The notes under the pieces are model-generated. The model did not search any database, had not been told where the DNA came from, and saw nothing but the letters and a program-made list of their open reading frames with translations. A stretch of DNA of 64,000 bases from Rhodocyclaceae bacterium (lineage in GTDB: Bacteria > Pseudomonadota > Gammaproteobacteria > Burkholderiales > Rhodocyclaceae): the NCBI GenBank assembly GCA_018261935.1, contig JAGTRP010000013.1, positions 62,001-126,000 on the forward strand, written 5' to 3'. Shown here in pieces: positions 3,635 to 22,961 of this stretch (its first letter is position 1; every line of letters starts with the position of its first letter). Position numbers and translations under genes: made by a program.

Positions 3635-3730
3635 GGAAGAGATCGTTCCCCGGTGGGACGGCCGGTCTTCAAAACCGGCGGGGCTCGTCAGACGAGCCTT
3701 GGTAGGTTCGACTCCTGCTCTCTTCCGCCA
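3635..3730 (+). tRNA. selC: tRNA-Sec (anticodon UCA)
   Basis: This 96-nt gene encodes its own CCA end. It shows the features specific to bacterial tRNA-Sec: an 8-bp acceptor stem (GGAAGAGA with TCTCTTCC), an extended D stem, the anticodon loop CTTCAAA with TCA at 3669-3671, a long variable arm (GGGGCTCGTCAGACGAGCC) and the T-arm GGTTCGACTCC. It resembles E. coli selC closely in layout. It decodes UGA as selenocysteine with SelB, and its presence beside selAB shows that the organism makes selenoproteins. Confidence 0.98.
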
Positions 3731-9029: not shown

Positions 9030-9890
9030 ATGGATGCAGGTCTGGTCATCGTCATCGCGCTGCTGGTCTTCCTCGCCGTCACCCTGGCCAAGGGGGTGCG
9101 CCTGGTCTCCCAGGGGGAGGAATGGATCGTCGAGCGCCTGGGCAAGTACTACCGCACCATCACCCCGGGCCTCAATATCCTCATCCCCTACCTGGACAAC
9201 GTGGCCTACAAGCTCATCACCAAGGACATCATCCTCGACGTCCAGGAGCAGGAAGTCATCACTCGGGACAACGCCGTCATCCTCACCAACGCCATTGCCT
9301 TCGTGAAGGTGACGGACCCGGTGAAGGCGGTCTACGGGGTCACCGACTTCGCCGAGGCGATCCGCAACATGATCATGACGACCCTGCGCTCCATCGTAGG
9401 CGAAATGGAACTGGACGCGGCCCTTTCCTCCCGGGACAAGATCAAGGCCCGGCTGCGGGAGAGCATCGCCGACGAGGCGGTGGATTGGGGCCTCACCGTG
9501 AAGTCGGTGGAAATCCAGGACATCAAGCCTTCCCCGTCCATGCAGAAGGCCATGGAATTGCAGGCTGCCGCCGAGCGGGAAAGGAAGGCGGCGGTGACCA
9601 AGGCCGAAGGGGCAAAGCAGGCCGCCATCCTGGAGGCCGAAGCCCGGCTGGAGTCGGCCAAGCGCGATGCCAACGCCCAGGTCATGCTGGCGGAAGCCTC
9701 GGCCGAGTCCATCCGGCGGGTAACGGCGGCCATCGGCGACCAGCCCGGGCCCATGCTTTTCCTCCTGGGCGAGAAATACATCGCTTCCCTGGAAAAGCTC
9801 GGCCAGGCGCCCAGTTCCAAGCTGGTGGTGATGCCCGCCGACCTCCAGGAGACCCTGCGCGGGCTTATTGGAAGGTTCGGCAAGGGCTGA
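9030..9890 (+). CDS. qmcA: SPFH/Band 7 paraslipin (QmcA-like)
   Basis: The 286-residue protein has one N-terminal membrane anchor (residues 2-22), the stomatin/prohibitin SPFH domain (EEWIVERLGKYYRTITPGLNILIPYLD through VDWGLTVKSVEIQDI) and a long Ala/Glu/Lys coiled-coil (about 170-225) used for oligomerisation. It is paired with the NfeD gene as in many bacteria. It probably forms large membrane-bound rings, with roles in membrane protein quality control. Length and motif order are typical for QmcA/YbbK. Confidence 0.93.
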   Translation: MDAGLVIVIALLVFLAVTLAKGVRLVSQGEEWIVERLGKYYRTITPGLNILIPYLDNVAYKLITKDIILDVQEQEVITRDNAVILTNAIAFVKVTDPVKAVYGVTDFAEAIRNMIMTTLRSIVGEMELDAALSSRDKIKARLRESIADEAVDWGLTVKSVEIQDIKPSPSMQKAMELQAAAERERKAAVTKAEGAKQAAILEAEARLESAKRDANAQVMLAEASAESIRRVTAAIGDQPGPMLFLLGEKYIASLEKLGQAPSSKLVVMPADLQETLRGLIGRFGKG

Positions 9891-9912: not shown

Positions 9913-10009
9913 CCGGAGGGCGGGGCGTTCCTGGAGCCGGGCGAGGACTGTCCGAGCCCCGTCAGGGGCGAGTTCCGCAGCCCGGCGGAGGGAATGCCCC
10001 GCCCGACGC
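9913..10009. repeat. Palindromic element, copy 1
   Basis: A nested hairpin runs from 9918 to 10004: GGGCGGGGCGTTCC pairs with GGAATGCCCCGCCC, GCCGGGC pairs with GCCCGGC inside it, and GCCCC/GGGGC closes the tip. The core and the flanks (CCGGAG before, GACGC after) recur in copy 2 at 21849-21946. Several differences between the copies occur on both arms and keep pairing. It fills the gap between qmcA and the gcvH-like gene, with no reading frame of its own. Confidence 0.85.
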
Positions 10010-10034: not shown

Positions 10035-10478
10035 ATGGCTGCCATGGCACACAAACCTTTCCGCGGCGCCATTCCCGACGACCGCCTCTATTGCTCGCGC
10101 CACGATATGTGGGTCCAGGAAAAGGATGGCGAAGTCCTGATCGGGGCCACCAGTTTCGGCATCTTCCTGGCCGGCGAAATCATCGCCTTCACCGCCAAGC
10201 CCAACGGTGCCGAAGTGGAGATCCACCGGGGCATGGGAACGGTGGAGTGCCGCAAGACGGTGCTCGCCGTCCACTCCCCGCTTTCCTTCAAGCTCGTGGA
10301 AGGCAACGAGGTGGCGGAGTCGAGGCCCAAGCTCATCAATATCGACCCCTACGGCACCGGCTGGATGGCCCGAGGCCAAGCCATGGCCTGGCTGGCCGAA
10401 CGGGAAAGGCTGCTCGATGCCGCCGCCTATCGGCTGCATGTGTTGTCGGTCGAGCCGGGTGCGCGCTTTGACGACTGA
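10035..10478 (+). CDS. Glycine cleavage H-protein-like (lipoyl carrier-like) protein
   Basis: This 147-residue protein aligns with GcvH: RLYCSRHDMWVQEKDGEVLIGATSFGIFLAGEI corresponds to the N-terminal part, and ECRKTVLAVHSPLSFKLVEGNE to the ESVK lipoylation loop, so the acceptor lysine appears retained, with a cysteine two residues before it. The end motif LINIDPYGTGWM is also typical. No gcvT or gcvP lies nearby, so this is an orphan H-like protein. A second ATG at 10044 is an alternative start. Its stop overlaps the start of a DsrE-like gene, suggesting coupled translation and a shared role, perhaps a lipoyl-linked sulfur relay (inference). Confidence 0.75.
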   Translation: MAAMAHKPFRGAIPDDRLYCSRHDMWVQEKDGEVLIGATSFGIFLAGEIIAFTAKPNGAEVEIHRGMGTVECRKTVLAVHSPLSFKLVEGNEVAESRPKLINIDPYGTGWMARGQAMAWLAERERLLDAAAYRLHVLSVEPGARFDD

Positions 10479-21389: not shown

Positions 21390-21416
21390 CGGGCGGCGGG
21401 AATGCCTTGCCGCCCG
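21390..21416 (+). terminator. Stem-loop after the SNF2 gene
   Basis: An 8-bp stem (CGGGCGGC / GCCGCCCG) with an 11-base loop lies 10 bases behind the stop. No U-run follows, so termination is only possible. Confidence 0.35.
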
Positions 21417-21473
21417 TTCGAGGGAAAAGCGATCTACAATGCCGGCCCGAATCACCACTCTTTGCAACACATC

Positions 21474-21815
21474 ATGACTGCCACTCTCCCCTGCCCCCAA
21501 TGCGCCATGGAAAACACCTATCCGGACGGCGACAACTACGTCTGCGCCGACTGCGGCCATGAATGGCCCATGCAGGCGAACGCCGAGGCCGACGACGACG
21601 GCGAGCGGGTGATCAAGGACGCCAACGGCAACGTGCTGTCCAACGGCGACTCCGTAGTCCTGATCAAGGACCTGAAGGTCAAGGGTTCCTCCATCACCCT
21701 CAAGGTCGGCACCAAGATCAAGGGCATCCGCCTGGTGGACGGCGACCACGAGGTGGACTGCAAGACGGACGCCGGCAACATCATGTTGAAGGCCTGCTAC
21801 CTGCGCAAGGCCTGA
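21474..21815 (+). CDS. yjdM: Zinc-ribbon protein YjdM (PhnA family)
   Basis: The 113-residue protein has an N-terminal zinc ribbon (LPCPQCAMENTYPDGDNYVCADCGHEW) and the conserved body VIKDANGNVLSNGDSVVLIKDLKVKGSS ... KIKGIRLVDGDHEVDCK. It was long named PhnA for a supposed role in alkylphosphonate use, which is not supported for this form. The ATG at 21474 is chosen because the family starts just before the first zinc cysteines; an upstream ATG at 21402 would add 24 unrelated residues. Confidence 0.93.
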   Translation: MTATLPCPQCAMENTYPDGDNYVCADCGHEWPMQANAEADDDGERVIKDANGNVLSNGDSVVLIKDLKVKGSSITLKVGTKIKGIRLVDGDHEVDCKTDAGNIMLKACYLRKA

Positions 21816-21848: not shown

Positions 21849-21946
21849 CCGGAGGGTGGGGCGTTTGAGGAGCCGGGCGAGGACTGTCTGAGGGAGCGCA
21901 GCGACCGAGTTCCGCAGCCCGGCGGAGCAAATGCCCCGCCCGACGC
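21849..21946. repeat. Palindromic element, copy 2
   Basis: Same structure as copy 1 at 9913-10009. The outer stem GGGTGGGGCGTTTG (from 21854) pairs with CAAATGCCCCGCCC (to 21941), and the inner GCCGGGC with GCCCGGC. Where copy 1 has CC/GG pairs in the outer stem, this copy has TG/CA, so pairing is conserved while sequence is not. The tip differs entirely. It lies between the convergent yjdM and cinA-like genes. Confidence 0.85.
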
Positions 21947-21975: not shown

Positions 21976-22491
21976 TCAGGCCAGCCGCGTATCCTCCAGC
22001 CGTTCCAGCAGACCGAGCAGGACCTGGCGCACCGATTGGGCCCGCACCGCTTCCCGGTCACCGGCGAAACGGGCCGTCTGGGCTTCGCAGCCGCCGTCCC
22101 GGGCAGCCCAGGCGAAGCACACCATCCCCACCGGCTTCTCCGGCGTGCCCCCGCTGGGACCGGCGATGCCGGTGATAGCCACGGCCCAATCCGCCCGGCT
22201 GTGGGCCAGGGCCCCCTGGGCCATGGCCCGGGCGGTGGCTTCCGAAACGGCGCCGTGGCGCTCCAGGGTGGTCGATGCCACCCCCAGCATGTCCACTTTG
22301 GCGGCATTGGAATAGGTGACGAATCCCCGGTCGAACCAGCTGGAGCTGCCGGCGATGGCGGTGACGCACTGGGCCACCCAACCGCCGGTACAGGATTCCG
22401 CCGTGGCCAGCTGTTCGCCGCGGGCGAGCAGGCTTTCCCCCAGCTTGGCCGCCAGGGCTTCCAGATCGGTCTGGCTTATCCGAGGATCCAT
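21976..22491 (-). CDS. pncC: CinA C-terminal family protein (nicotinamide-nucleotide amidohydrolase)
   Basis: PncC converts NMN to nicotinate mononucleotide in NAD salvage. The 171-residue protein consists of the stand-alone CinA C-terminal domain: ATAESCTGGWVAQ holds the catalytic serine region, followed by FDRGFVTYSNAAKVDMLGV, VSEATARAMAQGAL and AITGIAGPSGGTPEKPVG. Length is typical. The start at 22491 overlaps the pgpA stop by 16 bases, so it is the last gene of the rib-thi-pgpA run. Confidence 0.93.
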   Translation of the reverse strand: MDPRISQTDLEALAAKLGESLLARGEQLATAESCTGGWVAQCVTAIAGSSSWFDRGFVTYSNAAKVDMLGVASTTLERHGAVSEATARAMAQGALAHSRADWAVAITGIAGPSGGTPEKPVGMVCFAWAARDGGCEAQTARFAGDREAVRAQSVRQVLLGLLERLEDTRLA

Positions 22492-22961
22492 TTCAGGACG
22501 GCGATGACTACCAGGGTGTAGAGGCCGGCGATGACGTCGTCGGTCATGACGCCGAAGCCGTTTTTCACGTGCTGGTCGAACCAGCGGGCAGGCTGCGGCT
22601 TGGTGATGTCGAAGAGGCGAAAAAGGCAGAAGGCCGCCAGTTGCCACAGGAAAGCGGGCGGGGTCAGGAGCAGCACTCCCCAGAAAGGGACGATCTCATC
22701 CCAGACAATGCTGCCATGGTCCGGTTCCCCCAGGGCCTCGCCGGTTTTCTGGATGACCCAGATGCCCCCCAGGTAGGCCACCGCCAGCAGGATGCCGAAC
22801 TGCAGGTCGCTGAAATGGGGCTTGATGAGGAGGTAGGTCAGCCACGCAAAGGCGGTGCCGACGGTTCCCGGTGCCCACATGGACAGGCCGCTGCCGCAGC
22901 CGCAGGCAATGAAATGGGCCGGGTGGGCGAAGAGGAATTTGAGGGACGGGGGCTTAGCCAA
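22476..22961 (-). CDS. pgpA: Phosphatidylglycerophosphatase A
   Basis: PgpA removes the phosphate from phosphatidylglycerophosphate, the last step to phosphatidylglycerol. The product of about 161 residues shows GSGLSMWAPGTVGTAFAWL, the metal-binding WDEIVPFWGVLL, RLFDITKPQPARWFD and GFGVMTDDVIAGLYTLVV, with several membrane helices. The best start is TTG at 22961, which overlaps the thiL stop; no ATG or GTG lies at a better place. Coupling to thiL is common in proteobacteria. Confidence 0.9.
   Translation of the reverse strand: MAKPPSLKFLFAHPAHFIACGCGSGLSMWAPGTVGTAFAWLTYLLIKPHFSDLQFGILLAVAYLGGIWVIQKTGEALGEPDHGSIVWDEIVPFWGVLLLTPPAFLWQLAAFCLFRLFDITKPQPARWFDQHVKNGFGVMTDDVIAGLYTLVVIAVLKWILG

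Follow-up and report, generated by a model that had tools for sequence, protein, structure and literature searches.

Two structured hairpins in the window

The window analysed here is a 64,000-nt stretch of a Rhodocyclaceae genome (contig offset 62,000) and holds two copies of a large stacked hairpin. Copy 1 follows an SPFH/stomatin-like open reading frame (ORF) and precedes a small one, and copy 2 lies between two convergent ORFs (Table 1). Covariance-model matches coincide exactly with two hairpins, of 87 and 88 folded nt, that an earlier note had read from the letters. The core with a variable gap is matched exactly twice in the window, against 0.00 expected from shuffles.

The differences between the copies are as that note described. 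CC/GG at the inner end of the outer stem in copy 1 becomes TG/CA in copy 2, and the tip loops are wholly different. A change given there as G-C to U-G is seen as C-G versus U-G, further out in the outer stem. Folding of the + strand beats all 200 shuffles for both copies (z -3.8 and -4.6), and that of the - strand is hardly better than in shuffles (z -0.6 and -1.3).

Elsewhere in the window, a selenocysteine tRNA (3635-3726, +; Rfam RF01852, 72.8 bits) stands behind two long + ORFs (3-1094 and 1091-2989) whose lengths would fit SelA/SelB, making them candidates by length.

Table 1. The two hairpin copies, their parts and their neighbours in window coordinates
Feature	Position	Strand	Basis
Copy 1 (97 nt)	9913..10009	+	covariance-model match, 102.3 bits; alignment
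Copy 1 neighbour, SPFH/stomatin-like ORF	9030-9890	+	
Copy 1 neighbour, small ORF	10035-10478	+	
Copy 1 outer stem, 5' arm	9918..9931	+	14 pairs with 9991-10004
Copy 1 outer stem, 3' arm	9991..10004	+	pair counts
Copy 1 inner stem, 5' arm	9936..9942	+	pairs with 9980-9986; pair counts
Copy 1 inner stem, 3' arm	9980..9986	+	pair counts
Copy 1 invariant core, 5' strand GAGGACTGTCCGA	9943..9955	+	invariant in 27/27 copies except YY; kept in other genera
Copy 1 variable tip stem-loop	9956..9969	+	pair counts
Copy 1 invariant core, 3' strand GAGTTCCGCA	9970..9979	+	alignment; other genomes
Copy 2 (98 nt)	21849..21946	+	covariance-model match, 110.5 bits
Copy 2 neighbour, convergent ORF	21402-21815	+	
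Copy 2 neighbour, convergent ORF	21976-22647	-	
Copy 2 outer stem, 5' arm	21854..21867	+	pairs with 21928-21941; pair counts
Copy 2 outer stem, 3' arm	21928..21941	+	pair counts
Copy 2 inner stem, 5' arm	21872..21878	+	pairs with 21917-21923; pair counts
Copy 2 inner stem, 3' arm	21917..21923	+	pair counts
Copy 2 invariant core, 5' strand GAGGACTGTCTGA	21879..21891	+	core search; alignment; other genomes
Copy 2 variable tip GGGAGCGCAGCGACC	21892..21906	+	alignment; pair counts
Copy 2 invariant core, 3' strand GAGTTCCGCA	21907..21916	+	alignment; other genomes

A family with variable arms and a constant core

The core pattern occurs at 28 places in the 4.06-Mb genome and its reversed control at none. 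When 27 of the genome's copies were used to train a covariance model, it recovered 28 full ones (97-120 bits) and one diverged inverted pair. By alignment, the unit is 96-98 bp long with the ends (A)CCGG and GACGC(GC), and it stacks an outer stem of 14 pairs, an inner stem of 7, a short GGA/TCC stem of 3 and a variable tip.

Across the 27 aligned copies, 96.4% of the paired cells are indeed paired and both-sided changes appear in 10 of the 30 pairs. The covariation score is 0.200; shuffles give 0.088 and slid controls 0.024-0.066. The outer stem is 97.9% paired with double changes at 5 of its 14 pairs, and the tip has them at 4 of 6.

The arms and the tip vary around a constant internal-loop core, GGCGAGGACTGTYYGAG-[tip]-CGAGTTCCGCAGCC. 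Its part between the inner stem and the tip, GAGGACTGTYYGA plus GAGTTCCGCA, is invariant in the 27 copies save two pyrimidines, and the 28th full copy has a single core change (GAGAACTGT). The tightest constraint is on the unpaired core and not on the stems, a feature that the earlier note had not singled out.

Occurrence in other genomes

Outside this genome, the pattern ACTGTYYGAG-N4-34-CGAGTTSCGCAGCC matched at least 120 stretches. The matches listed are mostly from Betaproteobacteria (Dechloromonas, Azonexus, Thauera, Azoarcus, Niveibacterium, Gallionella, Sideroxydans, Methylotenera, Neisseriaceae). Nitrospirales (Nitrospirota), Bacteroidota, Marinobacterium, Haliea, Barnesiella and other metagenome-assembled genomes are also among them; such taxonomy may be wrong for single contigs, though the title given to Barnesiella sp. 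An22 is that of an isolate, and two or more copies occur in several carriers.

Among 140 distinct hairpins from these genomes, each letter of GGCGAG, which lies just 5' of the searched pattern and was not demanded by it, is kept in 138-139. The helix-3 pair, formed by the base before ACTGT and its partner, is G-C in 112, C-G in 26 and mismatched in 2. The tips comprise 79 different sequences, and their pairs include 32 G-T versus 11 A-C. The earlier note's reading hinged on further copies and on pairing conserved among relatives, and both are found.

The window element has no Rfam match at E<=1 and six related loci have none at the gathering score, so membership in an Rfam RNA family was rejected. 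It is likewise unmatched among plasmids and phages, and one Variovorax megaplasmid matches a sister subfamily. A limited open-access literature search by the core sequence gave nothing relevant, which cannot prove the family undescribed.

Genomic context

With neighbouring genes called by a codon-usage script, 27 copies have both neighbours called and lie between convergent (15), co-directional (11) or divergent (1) genes. The convergent share compares with 12-14% of the window's intergenic regions (P ~1e-7, the background being one 64-kb window). The left edge falls 15-42 nt past a stop codon in 21 copies, mostly 19-23 nt. The co-directional copies are 6 sense and 5 antisense, hence show no strand bias, and neither window copy has a U-tract or terminator-like site or qualifies as an intrinsic terminator. 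An RNA function is therefore not supported by location alone.

Hairpin pairs and their cargo in relatives

In relatives, hairpins also stand in pairs. Those within 3 kb of each other point outward (divergent) in 30 of 35 cases, inward (convergent) in 4 and in tandem in 1. The spacers fall into two classes of 159-309 bp and 886-1658 bp, and reach 2.8 kb in the genus of G019. Long spacers contain one or a few genes that differ each time and are mostly of lower GC than the locus.

The cargo matches defence-type families (RelA_SpoT domain/PDC-S33, DUF2971/PDC-S31, DUF4145/PD-T7-4 and PDC-S67) as well as Mrr_N, an ion channel, DUF4062 and an alpha/beta hydrolase; many cargo genes have no family match. 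A divergent pair also surrounds a DUF2971/PDC-S31 gene on a viral contig from IMG/VR (L245, 9043-10271); phage or prophage DNA may thus be another vehicle for these units.

At an ahpF-like locus, G019 has a hairpin pair around a weakly DUF4238-like gene, its sister G065 lacks both the hairpin and the gene in a flank 94% identical, and in G064 a pair encloses another insert of 1 kb, with other genes. The pairs and their contents vary among sister species, which does not demonstrate excision or insertion directly.

The cargo pairs form a sister subfamily with different outer arms, to which the solo copies would be similar in movement only by extension. The paired elements carry extra conserved outer parts, GGGGTCGCC and then a second hairpin type CTTTTTCTTGGCGAAGCAAGAAAAAG, that the window copies lack. 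The second hairpin TTACTTTTTCTTGGCGAAGCAAGAAAAAGTGACT together with GGGGTCGCC was observed in the outer flanks of the hairpin pairs (L145, L148, L150, L178, L209, L210, L232); it is a dispersed motif of its own, matched to no named family.

One interval between divergent hairpins in G019 (L087, 1729-4022) contains attC-like sites recognised by eye, e.g. TAACCCGGCAGTCC...CGGTTAGCTCTACGTTGGGC, and single-gene cassettes, one for a potassium-channel-like protein.

Search for a mobiliser and for element ends

The RAYT association suggested by the earlier note fails. The Y1 transposase (Y1_Tnp, PF01797) has no match in the window's genome, a draft of 42 contigs with a possible gap, nor in three other carriers (G019, G025, G030), and the GTAG tag is absent. 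RAYT was rejected as the mobiliser, and its absence from four carriers makes it unlikely as a general one.

No recurrent neighbour family at the loci examined is recognisable as a transposase or common mobiliser, and the largest protein clusters beside the hairpins are spurious frames of the hairpin itself. Insertion at complements of the left arm was also set aside: three copies have 9-nt complements, but the mean, 5.1, barely exceeds the 4.7 of random DNA (P 0.04).

The integron integrase IntI is present in 10 of 11 carriers versus 26 of 50 non-carriers (Fisher P 0.017), a weak association since IntI is common in the order and the carriers were detected with a strict model. It offers only a lead to the mobiliser. 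Two integron integrases in the window's genome exceed the curated cut-off, and both lie close to the end of a contig (L273, G000:C1:342444-343388; L274, G000:C37:282-1226).

Outer inverted repeats of ~20 bp with 3-bp direct repeats, TAA or TTA, flank 2 of the 28 copies (L014 and L021), and several other copies keep the outer repeat at one end. Most copies have no target-site duplication. A parent transposon sharing the outer repeats was rejected, as the copies themselves are the sole matches in the genome.

Change between sister species

Copy number changes sharply within the genus of G025, with 17 and 19 copies in two species (G025 and G062) and 1 each in G061 and G063. Two sites that carry a copy in both G025 and G062 have none at the corresponding orthologous position in G061, and the first is empty also in G063; the empty sites are too diverged for exact boundaries, and loss is possible at any single one.

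Seven orthologous copies of G025 and G062, with flanks 88-96% identical, differ at 1-15 of 98 positions in arms and core. Four of their tips are replaced wholesale by another self-complementary tip (e.g. CCCGAAGGG for CGAGCGTAGCGAG), one is partly changed and two are the same. Conversion among copies or re-copying of tips contributes to the compensatory changes. As whole tips are replaced as units, this part of the changes should not be counted as many independent selected events. The earlier note had taken the paired changes as the signature of selection for a hairpin; such changes are present, but point-by-point selection need not explain them all.

Discussion

The likeness to REP/BIME or MITE families that the earlier note drew holds in kind: the element is dispersed, extragenic, near stop codons, favours convergent genes, shows compensatory changes and forms inverted pairs in relatives. 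In the wide sense it is REP-like, with 28 intergenic copies near gene ends and inverted pairs, one of them in this genome.

The GTAG REPs are palindromes of 20-40 bp beside a GTAG/GTGG tag (PMC3733652), and RAYT genes sit between two inverted REPs (PMC2817692, PMC3733652, PMC3116915). Like these and REPINs, the present hairpins are multi-copy palindromes that lie outside genes but close to their ends, with inverted pairs and compensatory changes, and a RAYT between inverted REPs resembles cargo between two hairpins. Unlike them, the unit here is 98 bp long with stacked stems and an invariant internal-loop core, and lacks both the tag and a genomic RAYT.

The CGTC REPs have stems of 8-9 bp starting with AT, loops of 4-5 nt and a CCA tail (PMC3733652). 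They occur in several phyla with no dedicated transposase and form dimers in opposite orientation (Di Nocera et al., PMC3733652). All three latter features recur here, as does CGTC near the element's 3' end on the - strand, whereas stems of 14+7+3 pairs and a variable tip do not fit the CGTC definition. Di Nocera et al. noted untagged palindromes as an open class (PMC3733652). The window family fits this class best.

Two cargo-carrying systems are also comparable. Mobile insertion cassettes are MITE-like units with transposase-less genes between two inverted copies, as in the cargo pairs; here, however, each end is a large structured hairpin whose unpaired core is conserved, and outer repeats and duplications are lacking in most copies.

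Integron attC sites are recognised by structure as a folded single strand, with a hypervariable tip and R'/R'' boxes GTTRRRY / RYYYAAC. The present family shares the folded strand, the hypervariable tip and small cargo genes often of defence type, but where a cassette has a single attC, a unit here has two divergent hairpins, and there is no array. Reading by eye finds no GTTRRRY box in either window copy.

On balance, the family is probably a ~98-bp non-autonomous REP-like mobile DNA element, the folded strand of which is read by a trans-acting enzyme. We infer that it is mobile, that the folded + strand is recognised by way of the core and that the enzyme is supplied in trans. The hairpin would form when the + strand becomes single-stranded, as on the lagging strand or in conjugation or repair. 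A putative recombinase or transposase would then read the unpaired core, not the arms, and may move either a hairpin on its own or whatever DNA two divergent hairpins enclose. The window copies would be solo members of a Rhodocyclales-type subfamily, presumably tolerated owing to their landing sites, which lie right behind stop codons and for the most part between convergent genes.

A bolder version, to which we lean less, sees the hairpins as the termini of an undescribed cassette-like class of mobile elements, in which an enzyme moves almost any short DNA, often defence genes, between two divergent structured hairpins that share a folded core, with the window solos being its minimal form. 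This is conceivable but rather doubtful.

It is unlikely that the hairpin spread as a 3'-UTR RNA element that, once transcribed, ends or protects mRNAs by Rho-linked termination or by blocking 3' exonucleases. Its start soon after stop codons would suit such a role, as would the far better folding of the + strand and the excess of G-T over A-C in tips, which favours folding of one strand. Single-stranded DNA fits the one-strand folding too, though, the co-directional copies show no strand preference, the window copies have no U-tract or terminator-like tail, and the divergent pairs around cargo are left unexplained.

Less likely still is a MITE of a DDE transposon, whose ends would be recognised at the outer terminal inverted repeats (TACGGCTTCCAACAAGTAACC), with the hairpin merely filling the interior. 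L014 and L021, with TACGGCTTCCAACAAGTAACC at both ends and their direct repeats, look the part, and several other copies retain one such end; most copies, both window copies included, lack these repeats, no parent transposon turned up, and the conservation sits in the inner core. Old immobile chromosomal hairpins, such as protein-binding or nucleoid sites whose likeness is maintained through gene conversion and through template switching at palindromes, would account for the swapped tips of otherwise similar orthologues and for a tip repertoire common to different loci, but are very improbable as conversion makes no copies at new sites and the sister species differ from 17-19 copies to 1.

As to the mobile element read through its core, a folded stretch of ~30 nt stays near letter-perfect across phyla in changing surroundings, which points to one widespread unnamed recogniser. 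The core is a simple search key for collecting hairpin pairs and finding the enzyme, and the sister species with 17-19 versus 1 copies make the search for it directly testable. If integron cassettes are bounded by such hairpins, as may be the case at L087, this would link both systems. If the hairpin pairs move genes, they would provide a second, integron-like route for the spread of small defence cassettes.
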